Source of the DNA: Pseudomonas oryzae
Lineage (GTDB): Bacteria > Pseudomonadota > Gammaproteobacteria > Pseudomonadales > Pseudomonadaceae
NCBI RefSeq assembly: GCF_900104805.1
Contig: NZ_LT629751.1
Coordinates: 3,866,501 to 3,930,500 of the forward strand
DNA length: 64,000 bases
Direction of reading: 5' to 3'
Part shown: positions 10,334 to 35,725 of the stretch, piece by piece
How the letters are laid out: every line of letters starts with the position of its first letter
Numbering within the stretch: the first letter of the stretch is position 1
Position numbers and translations under genes: made by a program
The notes under the pieces: generated by a model
What the model saw: the letters and a program-made list of their open reading frames with translations, nothing else
Told to the model about the DNA's origin: nothing
The model's database searches: none

Positions 10334-11797
<1,464 letters not shown>

Positions 11798-24407: not shown

Positions 24408-26597
24408 ATGCGCGAAGACCTATCCTTTCTGCTCAGTTCCCTCAACGATGCCCAGCGCCAGGCGGTGGCCGCGCCGCTCGGCCGCCAGCTGGTGCTGGCC
24501 GGCGCCGGCTCGGGCAAGACCCGCGTGCTGGTGCATCGCATCGCCTGGCTGATCGAGGTCGAGAATGCCGGTGCGCACTCGATCCTCGCCGTCACCTTCA
24601 CCAACAAGACTGCCGCCGAGATGCGCGCGCGCATCGAGCAGCTGCTCGGGGTCAATCCGGCCGGCATGTGGGTGGGCACCTTCCACGGCCTGGCCCACCG
24701 CCTGCTGCGCGCCCACTGGCAGGAGGCGGGGCTGGCGGAGAACTTCCAGATCCTCGACTCCGACGACCAGCAGCGCCTGGTCAAGCGGGTGATCCGCGAG
24801 CTGGGCCTTGACGAGCAGCGCTGGCCGGCACGCCAGGCGCAGTGGTTCATCAACGGCCAGAAGGACGAAGGCATCCGCCCGGCGCACATCCAGCCAGCCG
24901 GCGACCTGTACCTGGCCACCATGCTCAACATCTACAGCGCCTACGAGGCGGCCTGCGCGCGCGCCGGGGTGGTCGACTTCGCCGAGCTGCTGCTGCGCTC
25001 GCTGGAGCTGTGGCGCGACAACCCGGGCCTGCTCGAACACTACCGCCAGCGCTTCCGGCACATCCTGGTCGACGAGTTCCAGGACACCAACGCCGTGCAG
25101 TACGCCTGGCTGCGCCACCTGGCGGCGCCTTCCGGCAGCGCCGGTAGCAGCCTGATGGTGGTCGGCGACGACGACCAGTCGATCTACGGCTGGCGCGGCG
25201 CGCGCATCGAGAACATCCAGCAGTTCAGCCGCGACTTCAGCGATGCCGAGACCATCCGCCTGGAGCAGAACTACCGCTCCACGGCGAGCATCCTCAAGGC
25301 CGCCAACGCGCTGATCGCCCACAACCAGGGGCGTCTCGGCAAGCAGCTGTGGACCGAGGGCGACGAGGGCGACCCGCTCAGCCTGTACGCCGCGTTCAAC
25401 GAGCATGACGAGGCGCGCTTCATCGTCGAGCGCATCCAGGAGGCGGTGCGCAAGGACGGCCTCGAGCGCCGCGAGATCGCCATCCTCTACCGCTCCAACG
25501 CGCAGTCGCGGGTGCTCGAGGAAGCCCTGCTGCGCGAGAAGATCCCCTACCGGATCTACGGCGGCCAGCGCTTCTTCGAGCGCGCCGAGATCAAGAACGC
25601 CATGGCCTACCTGCGCCTGATCCGCCAGCGCGACGACGACGCGGCGCTGGAGCGGGTGCTCAACCTGCCGCCGCGCGGCATCGGCGAGAAGACCGTGGAG
25701 ACCCTGCGCGAGGTGGCGCGCAGCCAGCAGCTGTCGCTGTGGCGCGCGCTGCACCAGGCGGTCGGCCAGAAGCTGCTGCCCGGCCGCGCCGCCGGCGCGC
25801 TGAACGCCTTCGTCGAGCTGATCGACGGCCTCGCCCTGCGCGTCGAGGCCATGCCGCTGCACCTGTTGACCCAGACGGTGATCGAGCAGACCGGACTGAT
25901 CCCCTTCCATCTGGCCGAGAAGGGCGAGAAGGGCCAGACCCGCGTCGACAACCTCGAGGAGCTGGTCAGCGCCGCGCGCTCGTTCGAGAGCGCGGAAGAC
26001 GAGCTGTCGCCGCTGGCCGCGTTCATCGACCACGCCGCCCTGGAGGCCGGCGACGCCCAGGCCGACGAGGGCGAGGACAGCGTGCAGCTGATGACCCTGC
26101 ACAGCGCCAAGGGCCTGGAGTTCCCGCTGGTGTTCCTCGCCGGCATGGAGGAAGGCCTGTTCCCGCACAAGATGAGCCTGGAAGAGCCCGGCCGCCTCGA
26201 GGAGGAGCGCCGCCTCGCCTACGTCGGCCTGACCCGCGCCATGCAGCGCCTGGTGCTGACCTACGCCGAGACCCGCCGCCTGTACGGCAGCGAGACCTAC
26301 AACAAGGTGTCGCGCTTCGTCCGCGAGATCCCGCCGGGGCTGATCCACGAGGTGCGCCTGGCCGGCAGCGTCAGCCGGCCCATGGCCGCGCCGCGCAGCG
26401 TGGCCAGCCCGTTCGCCGGGGCCGGCGTGCCGGACACCGTGTTCGCCCTCGGCCAGCGCGTGCGCCACGCGCTGTTCGGCGAGGGGGTGATCCTCAACTA
26501 CGAGGGCAGCGGCGCGCAGGCGCGCGTGCAGGTCAATTTCGATGGCGAAGGCAGCAAGTGGCTGATGCTCTCCTACGCCAAGCTGGAAGCGCTCTAG
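24408..26597 (+). CDS. uvrD: DNA helicase II
   Basis: A 729-residue SF1A helicase. Motif Q/I reads LNDAQRQAVAA and VLAGAGSGKTRVLVHR; motif Ia TFTNKTAAEMRARIE; motif II LVDEFQDTNAVQY; motif III MVVGDDDQSIYGWRGA; motif IV RLEQNYRS; motif V LMTLHSAKGLEFPLVF; motif VI RLAYVGLTRAMQRLVL. The C-terminal tail VFALGQRVRHALFGEG, ILNYEG is the UvrD-type tudor-like domain. It unwinds DNA 3'-5' in mismatch and nucleotide-excision repair. I saw no convincing LexA box in the 118 bases upstream. Confidence 0.95.
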   Translation: MREDLSFLLSSLNDAQRQAVAAPLGRQLVLAGAGSGKTRVLVHRIAWLIEVENAGAHSILAVTFTNKTAAEMRARIEQLLGVNPAGMWVGTFHGLAHRLLRAHWQEAGLAENFQILDSDDQQRLVKRVIRELGLDEQRWPARQAQWFINGQKDEGIRPAHIQPAGDLYLATMLNIYSAYEAACARAGVVDFAELLLRSLELWRDNPGLLEHYRQRFRHILVDEFQDTNAVQYAWLRHLAAPSGSAGSSLMVVGDDDQSIYGWRGARIENIQQFSRDFSDAETIRLEQNYRSTASILKAANALIAHNQGRLGKQLWTEGDEGDPLSLYAAFNEHDEARFIVERIQEAVRKDGLERREIAILYRSNAQSRVLEEALLREKIPYRIYGGQRFFERAEIKNAMAYLRLIRQRDDDAALERVLNLPPRGIGEKTVETLREVARSQQLSLWRALHQAVGQKLLPGRAAGALNAFVELIDGLALRVEAMPLHLLTQTVIEQTGLIPFHLAEKGEKGQTRVDNLEELVSAARSFESAEDELSPLAAFIDHAALEAGDAQADEGEDSVQLMTLHSAKGLEFPLVFLAGMEEGLFPHKMSLEEPGRLEEERRLAYVGLTRAMQRLVLTYAETRRLYGSETYNKVSRFVREIPPGLIHEVRLAGSVSRPMAAPRSVASPFAGAGVPDTVFALGQRVRHALFGEGVILNYEGSGAQARVQVNFDGEGSKWLMLSYAKLEAL

Positions 26598-26647
26598 AAC
26601 AACAACACGCGGCCGCTGGCCGCCCCGTCGAGAATGGAGAAAACCCG

Positions 26648-27751
26648 ATGAATCGTCGCCAACTGTTCGGCGCTGCCGCAGCGCTGCTGGCCGCCCTCGG
26701 CCTGGCCGGCTGCAAGGATGAACCCGCCGCGCAACAGAACGCCGCGCAACCGGCGGCCGCGCCGGCGCAGAGCTTCACCTGGAAGATGGTCACCTCCTGG
26801 CCGAAGAACTACCCGGGCCTGGGCACCGGCGCCGAGGGCTTCGCCCAGCGCGTCAACGCCATGAGCGGCGGCCGCCTGACCATCAAGGTCTACGCCGCCG
26901 GCGAACTGGTCCCGGCCCTGGAAGCCTTCGACGCGGTGTCCCAGGGCACCGCCGAGCTGGCGCACACCACCCCCTACTACTGGAAGGGCAAGACCCCGGC
27001 CGCGCAGTTCTTCACCGCCGTGCCGTTCGGCCTGTCGACCCAGGAGATGCACGCCTGGCTGAGCCACGGCGGCGGTCAGGCGCTGTGGGAGGAGGCCTAT
27101 GCGCCGTTCGGCGTCAAGCCGCTGGCCGCCGGCAACTCCGGCATGCAGATGGGCGGCTGGTTCAACAAGGAGATCAACAGCCTGGAGGATCTCAAGGGCC
27201 TGAAGATCCGTACCCCGGGCCTCGGCGCCGAGGTCTACAACCGTCTCGGCGCGACCACCGTCAACCTGCCCGGCGGCGAGGTGTTCACCGCCATGCAGAC
27301 CGGCGCCATCGACGCCACCGACTGGGTCAGCCCGTACAACGACCTGGCCTTCGGCATCCACAAGGCCGCCAAGTACTACTACTTCCCGGGCTGGCAGGAG
27401 CCGCAGGCGGTCATCGAGCTGCTGCTCAACAAGAAGGCCTGGGACAGCCTGCCGGCCGACCTCAAGGCGATCGTCGAGGAAGCCGCGCGCGGTTCGGTGC
27501 AGGTCATGCTCGAGGAGTACGCCTTCAACAACGCCAAGGCGCTGGCCGAGCTGAAGAACCAGGGCACCGAGCTCAAGCGCTTCCCCGACGAGGTGCTGGC
27601 CGCCATGCGCCACGAGTCCGAGCAGGTGCTCGACCAGCTGGCCAGCCAGAACGAGCTGAACGGTCGCATCTGGGCGTCGATGAAGGCCTTCCGCGAGCAG
27701 GCCGTGGAGATGAGCAAGGTCTCCGAGAAGCAACTGCACAACTGGCGCTGA
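26648..27751 (+). CDS. TRAP-type substrate-binding lipoprotein (DctP family), no permease nearby
   Basis: A 367-residue protein. The signal MNRRQLFGAAAALLAALGLA ends in the lipobox LAGC, so Cys-22 is probably lipidated. The DctP fold follows: WKMVTSWPKNYPGLGTGAEG, GLKIRTPGLGAEVYNRLGAT with the conserved Arg that binds carboxylates, and GEVFTAMQTGAIDATDW. The family binds C4-dicarboxylates, keto acids or other organic acids for TRAP transporters. No DctQ or DctM gene lies on either side; the neighbours are uvrD and a Tim44-like gene. The binding protein must therefore use a permease elsewhere. The aromatic AKYYYFPGW segment suggests the 2-oxoacid-binding branch (tentative). Confidence 0.87.
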   Translation: MNRRQLFGAAAALLAALGLAGCKDEPAAQQNAAQPAAAPAQSFTWKMVTSWPKNYPGLGTGAEGFAQRVNAMSGGRLTIKVYAAGELVPALEAFDAVSQGTAELAHTTPYYWKGKTPAAQFFTAVPFGLSTQEMHAWLSHGGGQALWEEAYAPFGVKPLAAGNSGMQMGGWFNKEINSLEDLKGLKIRTPGLGAEVYNRLGATTVNLPGGEVFTAMQTGAIDATDWVSPYNDLAFGIHKAAKYYYFPGWQEPQAVIELLLNKKAWDSLPADLKAIVEEAARGSVQVMLEEYAFNNAKALAELKNQGTELKRFPDEVLAAMRHESEQVLDQLASQNELNGRIWASMKAFREQAVEMSKVSEKQLHNWR

Positions 27752-33305: not shown

Positions 33306-34097
33306 ATGGCCCTCGCCCCCCGCGTTCCCTTCCAATGCCTGTCCGCGGCCGAGGCCGCGGCGCTGGTCCGCGCCGAGCCGGACCTCGTCCTGTTCGACGT
33401 GCGCGACCGGCACAGCTACCAGCAGGAACATCTCGACGGCGCCATGCACCTGACCGAGGACCGCGTGCCGCTGTGGGTCGCTCGCCTGGAGAAGAGCGCG
33501 GCGCTGCTGGTCTACTGCTACCACGGCAACGCCAGCAAGACCTTCGCGCAGATGTTCAGCGACTTCCGCTTCGCCCGCGTGTACAGCGTCGACGGCGGCT
33601 ACCGGCCGCTGGCCAGCGCCCTGGCCGCGCCCGCCGAGGAGGCGCCGAGCGACAGCCCGAGCGCGGTGCTGGCCGGCTTTCTCGCCGACTGGGGCTACCC
33701 GGCCGGCGGGCTCGACACCCGCGGCGCACATGGCCTGACCCCGCTGATGCGCGCCGCCCTGCTCGGCCGCCGCGAGATCGTCCAGGAGCTGCTGGCTCTC
33801 GGCGCCGACCTGCAGGCGCGCAACGACGACGGCAACACCGCACTGTGGCTGGCCTGCGTGTCGCGCGACGCCGGCCTGGTGCAGGACCTGATCGAGGCCG
33901 GCAGCGAGCTGGACAGCCGCAACGACGCCGGCGCCACCGCGCTGATGTACACCGCCTCCAGCGATCGCGCCGAGCTGCTCGCGCTGCTGCTTGCCGCCGG
34001 CGCCGACCCGCAGCTGCGCAACTGCGACGACCTGCGCGCGGTGGAGCTGGCTGCTTCGCGGGATTGCCTCAGGCTACTGCGGCATACGGCGACATGA
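33306..34097 (+). CDS. Rhodanese domain fused to ankyrin repeats
   Basis: A 263-residue protein. Residues 1 to about 105 are a GlpE-like rhodanese: LVLFDVRDRHSYQQEHLDGA and the active-site cysteine in LLVYCYHGNASKTFAQMF, near residue 65. A spacer follows, then three to four ankyrin repeats from about residue 138 (HGLTPLMRAALLGRREIVQE, DGNTALWLACVSRDAGLVQD, AGATALMYTASSDRAELLAL). Rhodaneses carry persulfide sulfur and ankyrin repeats bind protein partners. It is placed directly after the SagB-type gene, so a shared sulfur or redox task is possible. The stop at 34097 is followed by the RNA gene on the other strand. Confidence 0.87.
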   Translation: MALAPRVPFQCLSAAEAAALVRAEPDLVLFDVRDRHSYQQEHLDGAMHLTEDRVPLWVARLEKSAALLVYCYHGNASKTFAQMFSDFRFARVYSVDGGYRPLASALAAPAEEAPSDSPSAVLAGFLADWGYPAGGLDTRGAHGLTPLMRAALLGRREIVQELLALGADLQARNDDGNTALWLACVSRDAGLVQDLIEAGSELDSRNDAGATALMYTASSDRAELLALLLAAGADPQLRNCDDLRAVELAASRDCLRLLRHTAT

Positions 34098-34165
34098 GTC
34101 GGCTGGGAATGCGTTGGGGACGGCGGCAGGATGGGCGTCCGGGGCGGGGAGCGCCTGGCGGCGCC

Positions 34166-34536
34166 ACAAAGCACAAGGGGGAGCCATTGGCTCCCCCTGC
34201 AGTCGGTCGTGCTTTGTTCTTCTTGTGTACAGGCTTGTTGTTGTTGTCGGTTGCCTGCCGGACGTCATGGTCCTGTGCTGGTCCCAAGCCGGGACTCAAG
34301 AACAAGCGGATTCCTTTGGACGCTGATATTGCCGCCACCCTTACGGGTCTGACCGGTGCTGGCCGCTGCCTCGGGGCAGTTTTATCGTTCTCGGGCCGGT
34401 CGGGGGAGAACCCAGTCGGGCAACTCCTCTCCAAAAGAATCAGTTTGTTGCGCCTCCACCCTGTTGTTCTTGTTGTGTTGGAGTCGTTACGTCTTGTTTT
34501 TGTTGTGTTGGTTCAGCGTTGTTGTTTTTGTTGTGG
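34166..34536 (-). ncRNA. CrcZ/CrcY-family regulatory RNA (Hfq-Crc decoy)
   Basis: No protein fits this stretch. On the minus strand it reads as a transcript of about 370 nt, with a sigma-54 promoter at one end and a hairpin terminator at the other. It is studded with CA motifs of the A-rich Hfq/Crc type. The 5' end gives CACAACAAAAACAACAACG and ACCAACACAACAAAAACAAG, then CCAACACAACAAGAACAAC and GCAACAAACTG. The 3' part gives GACAACAACAACAAGCC and ACAAGAAGAACAAAGCACG. CrcZ-type RNAs sequester Hfq (with Crc) and relieve catabolite repression. Start (about 34536) and end are inferred from promoter spacing and the hairpin. It is not next to cbrB, so it may be the CrcY/CrcX-type copy. Confidence 0.85.
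34177..34197 (-). terminator. Terminator of the CrcZ-like RNA
   Basis: GGGGGAGCC (34177-34185) and GGCTCCCCC (34189-34197) form a perfect 9-bp stem with a 3-base loop. On the minus strand it is followed by TTGTGCTTTG, a U-rich tail. Confidence 0.82.
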
Positions 34537-34545
34537 CGCAGATAA

Positions 34546-34561
34546 AGCAGATCCTGTGCCA
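34546..34561 (-). promoter_or_regulatory. Sigma-54 (-24/-12) promoter of the CrcZ-like RNA
   Basis: Minus strand TGGCACAGGATCTGCT matches TGGCAC-N5-TTGCW with exact GG-to-GC spacing and one mismatch. It predicts transcription starting near 34535. Upstream, GTAACG occurs twice on the minus strand (34637-34642 and 34659-34664, 22 bases apart). Both could be activator half-sites, for example for CbrB; that is a guess. Confidence 0.82.
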
Positions 34562-34852
34562 ACTTTTTAAAACCCTTTTAAATCAAGCAGTTAGCTTGTT
34601 TTAGAGGATACCTGTAGTGCCGATCAGGGGCTGCTACGTTACCGAGCTGCCCAGCTGGCGTTACGCCATGGCCGGCGTGGTAACACCGCGCCGCCGCCGC
34701 GCGGACCGACGCGCCGTCTCGTCGGGGACCCCATGGCCCATCCTCTGCCTGCCGATCGTCGCGCGGCCCCGCTCCTGGTCCTTGCGGCGGCTCGACGCTG
34801 CCGGAGCGTGCGGCCTATGATCCGCGCCCCGTCGTCGCGAGCCGTACCGTAG

Positions 34853-35725
34853 ATGCCATACCTGCTGATCGTCACCCTGCTCTGGGCCTTCTCCTTCAGC
34901 CTGATCGGCGAGTACCTCGCCGGCCAGGTGGACAGCGACTTCGCCGTGCTGGCGCGGGTGCTGGTCGCCGCCCTGGTATTCCTGCCATTCACCGTCTGGC
35001 GCGGCCTGCCTATGCGGCTGCTGGGCGGCCTGTGGCTGGCCGGCGCGCTGCAGTTCGGCGTCACCTACCTGTGCCTGTACCGCAGCTTCACGGTGCTGAC
35101 GGTGCCCGAGGTGCTGCTGTTCACCGTGCTCACGCCGATCTACGTGACCCTGATCGACGACGCCCTGGCGCGGCGCTTCAACCGCTGGGCGCTGCTCGCG
35201 GCGGTGGTGGCGGTGGGCGGCGGGGCGATCATCCGTTTCCGGCCGCTGGAGGGCGACTACCTGCTCGGCTTCCTGCTGCTGCAGGTGGCCAACGCCACCT
35301 TCGCCGCCGGCCAGGTGCTGTGCCGCCAACTGCTCGCCCGCCATCCGGTGGCGCAGCCGCTGCCACGCTTCTTCGGCCACTTCTTCCTCGGCGCGCTGCT
35401 GATCGCCCTGCCCTCGTTCCTGCTGTTCGGCAATCCCGCCAGGCTGCCGCACACCGCGGTGCAGTGGGGCGTGCTGCTGTGGATGGGCCTGTTCGCCACC
35501 GCGCTGGGCATGTACTGGTGGGTGAAGGGCAGCACCCGGGTCGATGCCGGCACCCTGGCGGTGATGAACGAGCTGCACGTGCCGGCCGGCCTGGTGGTCA
35601 ACCTGCTGATCTGGAACCGCGACGCCGACCTGCCGCGGCTGGCCGCCGGCGGTGCGGTGATCCTCCTCGCCATGGCGCTCAACCACCTCGGTCGGCGCCG
35701 CTGGGCCGCGCCCAGCCCGGCCTAA
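34853..35725 (+). CDS. DMT-superfamily (EamA) exporter
   Basis: A 290-residue membrane protein with ten hydrophobic segments in two EamA repeats (about residues 3-130 and 140-283). It begins PYLLIVTLLWAFSFSLIGEY and contains LTVPEVLLFTVLTPIYVTLI and TALGMYWWVKGSTRVDAGTL, which place it among carboxylate/amino-acid/amine exporters. Its leader overlaps the promoter region of the divergent CrcZ-like RNA. Substrate unknown. The region downstream of its stop is the dyad repeat at 35730. Confidence 0.85.
   Translation: MPYLLIVTLLWAFSFSLIGEYLAGQVDSDFAVLARVLVAALVFLPFTVWRGLPMRLLGGLWLAGALQFGVTYLCLYRSFTVLTVPEVLLFTVLTPIYVTLIDDALARRFNRWALLAAVVAVGGGAIIRFRPLEGDYLLGFLLLQVANATFAAGQVLCRQLLARHPVAQPLPRFFGHFFLGALLIALPSFLLFGNPARLPHTAVQWGVLLWMGLFATALGMYWWVKGSTRVDAGTLAVMNELHVPAGLVVNLLIWNRDADLPRLAAGGAVILLAMALNHLGRRRWAAPSPA

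Follow-up and report, generated by a model that had tools for sequence, protein, structure and literature searches.

The window, a stretch of 64,000 nucleotides, most probably contains the gene of a small RNA that sequesters the repressor Hfq-Crc once good carbon sources are exhausted. The best explanation as a whole, in which we place high confidence, is a minus-strand CrcZ-family decoy RNA gene, driven by CbrB, IHF and sigma-54, titrating Hfq-Crc and forming part of a set of five. On the evidence of its sequence, the gene is a confirmed member of the CrcZ family and, taken singly, an ordinary one; the surprise is the unusually expanded set of five such genes, compared with the usual one to three. 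The part worth following is the five-copy set, together with the missing canonical crcZ in two relatives, and not the single gene.

The RNA gene and its upstream region

The gene lies in a 755-base gap (window 34098-34852) between a rhodanese-ankyrin gene, which ends at 34097, and an EamA/DMT transporter gene, which starts at 34853; both flanks, named in this way by the preliminary description, are recognised by Pfam, and both are on the strand opposite to the RNA. The gap had been assigned to the CrcZ/CrcY-type family and a search with the Rfam CrcZ model proposed, the lack of a covariance match being one half of what was to speak against the assignment. The match is present: cmscan aligns the full length of the model (E 2.3e-68) with a score well above the gathering value (Table 1), and CrcZ is the sole Rfam family above its cut-off across the whole 64-kb window. 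In the strict sense, crcZ is the gene directly downstream of cbrB, a place which the window copy does not occupy.

Table 1. Features of the RNA gene (window positions) and CrcZ-type copies of the window genome (genome positions)
Feature	Position	Strand	Remarks
CrcZ-type sRNA gene	34141..34534	(-)	Rfam RF01675, model 1-398 of 398; 249.7 bits, gathering score 95
Conserved unit, CbrB sites to terminator	34160..34700	(-)	Aligns with the G005 and G007 copies at the same locus
CbrB triple site	34638..34685	(-)	Exact pattern: F1 TGTTAC 34685-34680, R1 GTAACG 34664-34659, R2 GTAAC 34642-34638
IHF-consensus match	34581..34593	(+)	AATCAAGCAGTTA; 0 mismatches to the consensus (no shuffle control); between CbrB sites and promoter
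Sigma-54 -24/-12 promoter	34546..34561	(-)	TGGCACAGGATCTGCT; GG-N10-GC spacing; position and spacing the same in 27/27 genus copies
A-rich Hfq-type motif 1 (AANAAYAA)	34522..34529	(-)	Pattern match
A-rich motif 2	34494..34501	(-)	Pattern match
A-rich motif 3	34464..34471	(-)	Pattern match
A-rich motif 4	34238..34245	(-)	Pattern match
A-rich motif 5	34214..34221	(-)	Pattern match
Terminator hairpin	34176..34198	(-)	10 pairs; extended by an outer GCAC/GUGC stem
Copy 1	1291612	(+)	CrcZ match
Copy 2	1792211	(-)	CrcZ match
Copy 3	2480594	(-)	CrcZ match
Copy 4 = window copy	3900641	(-)	CrcZ match
Copy 5, cbrAB-linked	G000:C1:4363224-4363606	(-)	CrcZ match; canonical crcZ place

The sigma-54 promoter with exact spacing that had been described earlier was recovered as TGGCACAGGATCTGCT (34561-34546), although its pattern alone is not significant, with 2 matches in the window against 0.42 expected and 7 of 100 shuffles reaching 2. 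The RpoN class and CbrB control, also claimed before, are supported by an exact CbrB triple site which, like the IHF-like site, had been missed at that stage. The CbrB subsites upstream of the window copy are spaced by 21 and 22, and the triple pattern occurs once in the window versus 0 times in 100 shuffles. The window genome (4,642,093 bases) contains 5 exact matches, one upstream of each CrcZ-type copy, the three-site set standing at near-constant spacing ahead of all five, and no match to the reversed pattern. In the eight genomes of the genus, all 26 exact triple sites lie upstream of a CrcZ-type copy, with 0 in the reversed control, and the 27th genus copy, G003_1, has a triple site with one mismatch. 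The IHF-like site is found at the equivalent position in all 27 genus copies (22 exact, 5 with one mismatch). Regulation through sigma-70 was rejected: its one match (1 found, 0.1 expected) lies at 34792-34821 on the opposite strand and does not precede the RNA.

Outside the genus, 51 other genomes of the family, taken from a 95-genome set, have the exact triple site at 38 of their 63 CrcZ-type copies, 7 of these 63 being below the family cut-off, while 3 of their 45 exact sites have no listed CrcZ-type copy downstream; the reversed control gives 10 matches in the same genomes, so a certain background has to be reckoned with in this group, and outside the family both the pattern and its reversed control are at background level. 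The exact site is found at more than one copy in just 1 of the 16 multi-copy genomes of this group, as against 26 of the 27 genus copies, and an exact enhancer at every dispersed copy is therefore characteristic of the genus. The near one-to-one pairing of triple site and CrcZ-type gene in the eight genomes offers a clean way of finding the strongest CbrB targets of the genus by computation. As a separate observation, a CbrB triple site stands near a contig end (G043:C53:197-243) in the only g9 genome without a CrcZ match, where the RNA gene has probably been cut off by the assembly.

Regarding the RNA body, about six A-rich motifs had been announced: the motifs are present, exceeding all 500 shuffles, and their number is five. 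AANAAYAA occurs 5 times compared with a shuffle mean of 0.24 and a maximum of 3, and (ARN)4+ occurs 5 times compared with a mean of 0.33 and a maximum of 2. Likewise, a hairpin terminator was located, with a stem of 10 pairs compared with the 9 first given; the terminator scan taken alone hardly exceeds chance, with 2 sites in the region against 1.3 expected, and the stem is nonetheless kept across the genus copies. The consensus fold of the genus alignment has 69 predicted pairs, 13 of them with at least one compensatory change, and its covariation term is small (-1.63).

Copy number and history of the locus

The window genome holds five full-length CrcZ-type copies, all above the cut-off (223-255 bits) and each with different surroundings, and the "second copy" of the preliminary description has to be corrected to one of five. 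The cbrAB-crcZ locus, whose location had been proposed as a check, was found at 4.36 Mb, where the RNA lies between cbrB and pcnB, followed by folK and panB. The 1.29-Mb copy is one gene (an aminotransferase) away from a gene for an ACT-PAS-sigma-54 activator (L036:7793-9679). The genus group of the window genome is presumably what is now called Geopseudomonas.

The other seven genomes of the genus, with all candidates scored, have 4, 2, 4, 3, 3, 3 and 3 copies, and no other genome of the 95-genome set, with 12 candidates scored in each, has more than four. A wider family survey found a CrcZ match above the cut-off in 392 of 398 genomes. Rescoring afterwards covered the 28 genomes outside the genus with at least three, those with none, one or two keeping their survey result: 27 have exactly three copies, and in G356, an assembly of 610 contigs, two copies are full-length and three further matches are partial pieces. 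Five full-length copies were found in no other surveyed genome, the survey having scored three candidates per genome and counting poorly above three. No paper on CrcZ-type RNAs in this genus was found in the open-licence literature, nor, among the titles and abstracts listed, one on sets above those already described; the complements reported elsewhere are a single RNA for P. aeruginosa, a pair formed by CrcZ and either CrcY or CrcX, or, in a review, all three of CrcZ, CrcY and CrcX for P. syringae DC3000 (PMC4063720, PMC8871633, PMC12552145). Some particular cases were observed in these surveys: G001 carries two CrcZ-type copies of like orientation, separated by about 6 kb (L040:5001-5393 and 11374-11767); with stricter filters, no CrcZ match appeared in G018, G034, G046 and G057, which are all the g12 genomes of the relatives set, although almost the whole family has one; and the copies of a genus member (L078, L079, L085) are found in a record with the title Stutzerimonas stutzeri strain K1, whose species label looks wrong.

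Location groups of the 27 genus copies were set by neighbour genes, with G003_1 unplaced at a contig end: Z (the cbrAB position) in six genomes, C in six, D in eight, A in two and W (the window locus) in three, one of the eight D genomes having a further copy about 6 kb away. The W locus is shared by the window genome (G000), G005 and G007, in all of which it lies between a Tim44-domain gene and a FUSC gene, the genes inside this frame being different. In G000 and G007 the Tim44 gene has a DctP gene on its outer side, while the G005 contig begins at that point; the DctP match of the window (26003-27751) covers residues 266-548 of a 582-residue frame, which suggests a misplaced start or an extra N-terminal part. 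By blastn, the window and G005 are 86% identical over 554 columns, gap positions 63-603 (34160-34700), a stretch that opens shortly ahead of F1 and closes shortly after the terminator, and within the gap no homology to G005 or G007 was found beyond these limits; the RNA body is 95% identical to the copies of both.

G006 keeps the gene order nitroreductase, rhodanese-ankyrin, EamA and FUSC, but has about 146 bp in place of the 755 and no RNA, and hence the window copy is not needed across the genus. Moreover, the closest relative by CbrA identity, G001 (96%), has none of its four copies among W-locus neighbours. G005 and G007 both possess cbrA (one each) and cbrB, the distance from cbrB to pcnB being about 142 bp with no RNA between, and carry three dispersed copies each (C, D and W). 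The simplest reading of these sequences is that the canonical crcZ was lost in both, because the RNA stands between cbrB and pcnB in 6 of the 8 genus species and also at each of the seven cbrAB-linked loci examined outside the genus.

In a tree that also held nine outside copies, five of them cbrAB-linked and four not, for which 9 of the 15 fetched loci of other genera were used and where a long-branch warning concerned mostly the other genera and also the D copy G002_2, the 27 genus copies form one branch (98/96). Within the genus, the clade tests rejected D (p 0.003) and A (0.002), and did not reject Z (0.24) and C (0.29), while the W copies of G000, G005 and G007 form one branch with a support of 91/94. 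Two G001 copies whose loci are unrelated share 96-100% of their bases in the first 250 nt of the RNA and show 45-57% identity upstream, in 50-nt steps from -400 to -150; this likeness inside the RNA and unlikeness upstream points to gene conversion within the RNA, by which some copies look homogenised.

We give about an even chance to a wider model for the genus, in which the genes would be dispersed, self-contained units of about 540 bp, from CbrB enhancer to terminator, kept alike in part by gene conversion, and the total dose would carry the relief of repression; the cbrAB-linked crcZ would then be dispensable, and would have been lost in two species living on dispersed copies, W included. 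CrcZ, CrcY and CrcX have been treated as largely redundant, and the five intact copies, together with the relatives without the standard crcZ, open a direct way to test redundancy and the effects of copy number and promoter strength.

Proposed action and alternative explanations

The partners of the proposed mechanism are encoded in the window genome. Crc reaches 520.8 bits to PDB 4jg3, its gene lying beside pyrE, and Hfq reaches 154.7 bits to PDB 1u1s, the true hfq being located at 4.47 Mb. A second, weak Hfq-domain match was seen at G000:C1:554455-554646 (L118), with 31.9 bits for a cut-off of 27, and 27.7 bits to the NCBIfam Hfq model, below its 61.7. CbrA and CbrB are both present, named from gene order and length, neither name appearing among the best 25 NCBIfam matches for each. 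Since Hfq, Crc, CbrA and CbrB exist in this genome, we infer for the window RNA, by analogy with studied relatives, the same role, namely that it is transcribed in dependence on CbrB and RpoN, binds Hfq-Crc and relieves repression. When the preferred carbon source runs short, CbrB would bind F1-R1-R2 at about -150, -130 and -108, IHF would bend the DNA between these sites and the promoter, and sigma-54 RNA polymerase would start at the predicted +1 (about 34535), the predicted transcript of about 370 nt ending at the hairpin (about 34166). The five A-rich patches would then be bound by the distal face of Hfq together with Crc, and the decoy would draw the repressor off catabolic mRNAs; the window copy, one of five with its own complete CbrB enhancer, would probably add to the decoy dose.

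Among the alternatives, a specialised decoy is the most probable, and we consider it rather unlikely: the RNA would be under CbrB control and yet respond to another condition, owing to the strength of its enhancer or to additional regulators, or it would titrate another function of Hfq. The five promoters (-155 to 0) are 63-75% identical compared with 80-91% for the RNA bodies, and in P. ogarae control by ANR has been suggested for crcY and not for crcZ in that strain (PMC12552145); on the other side stand the near-equal spacing of the CbrB sites in all five copies and the fact that none of the 27 genus copies has, within 400 upstream bases, an exact ANR site (TTGAT-N4-ATCAA) of the kind known from P. 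aeruginosa crcZ. That the window copy is a silent or decaying duplicate, a CrcZ relic with its expression lost, is very improbable. The coming and going of copies in the genus, seen in the G006 gene order without the RNA and in the lack of a copy among the W neighbours of G001, would fit such a relic, but promoter, enhancer, motifs and terminator are all intact, and the RNA body has kept its identity with G005 and G007 while blastn homology stops at the edges of the unit.

We give a negligible probability to readings in which the feature codes for a small protein or belongs to the 5' part of a neighbour's transcript, and is no stand-alone RNA. Frames of 64, 121 and more codons do overlap the RNA on its strand, and one TTG frame exceeds all others in length in 14 of the 27 genus copies; however, this frame ranges from 4 to 100 codons over the 27, has unrelated residues at its end and contains single-base alignment gaps, and the longest frames of the copies vary from 36 to 108 codons with differing start positions. 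The protein-coding reading was rejected on these grounds, and the earlier statement that the gap has no credible protein stands. As for a neighbouring transcript, the terminator stem closes the unit and the neighbour genes are on the other strand.

Comparison with known decoy RNAs

In P. aeruginosa, the A-rich stretches of CrcZ have been described to bind the distal face of Hfq, with translational repression being lifted (PMC4063720). The window copy resembles this RNA in matching the covariance model over its full length and in its sigma-54/CbrB promoter, terminator and A-rich Hfq motifs, and differs in not being placed behind cbrB and in having five of these motifs, compared with the six given for P. 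aeruginosa CrcZ (PMC4063720). In the P. putida crcZ and crcY promoters, as reported, one forward and two reverse CbrB subsites are 20-25 bp apart and IHF acts between them and the promoter (PMC6296734), which is the arrangement found in the window. For A. vinelandii, both promoters are reported to be RpoN-dependent, with read-through from cbrB keeping CrcZ RNA high in the absence of RpoN (PMC6292655); the window copy is dispersed, with no cbrB upstream.

CrcY of P. putida and A. vinelandii is a second CrcZ-type RNA, reported to be controlled by CbrB and RpoN in the studied cases (PMC8871633, PMC6292655, PMC6296734), and the window copy is likewise a further CrcZ-type RNA gene with, in its case predicted, CbrB/sigma-54 elements. 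Orthology with CrcY and CrcX was considered, and for CrcY it is not supported: in a neighbour-gene comparison with 15 loci from seven genomes of six other genera, seven of these loci being cbrAB-linked and the P. putida gene itself lying outside the set, no orthologous neighbours were found in common with the eight second or third copies, and the genus copies form a separate branch (98/96). Outside the cbrAB context, two families are shared with the D locus, an acyl-CoA dehydrogenase (L072) and a short-chain dehydrogenase (L075), each with 36% identity, which are probably paralogues. CrcX of P. syringae is a further CrcZ-type RNA and a reported CbrB target (PMC8871633). The window RNA can be likened to it as another further CrcZ-type RNA by description, the P. 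syringae reference locus standing outside the comparison. Finally, the RsmY/RsmZ-type system also uses several dispersed RNAs to titrate one RNA-binding repressor. The set of the window genome shares with it the principle of dispersed, multi-copy decoys, and differs from it in the protein (Rsm), the motif (GGA) and the control.
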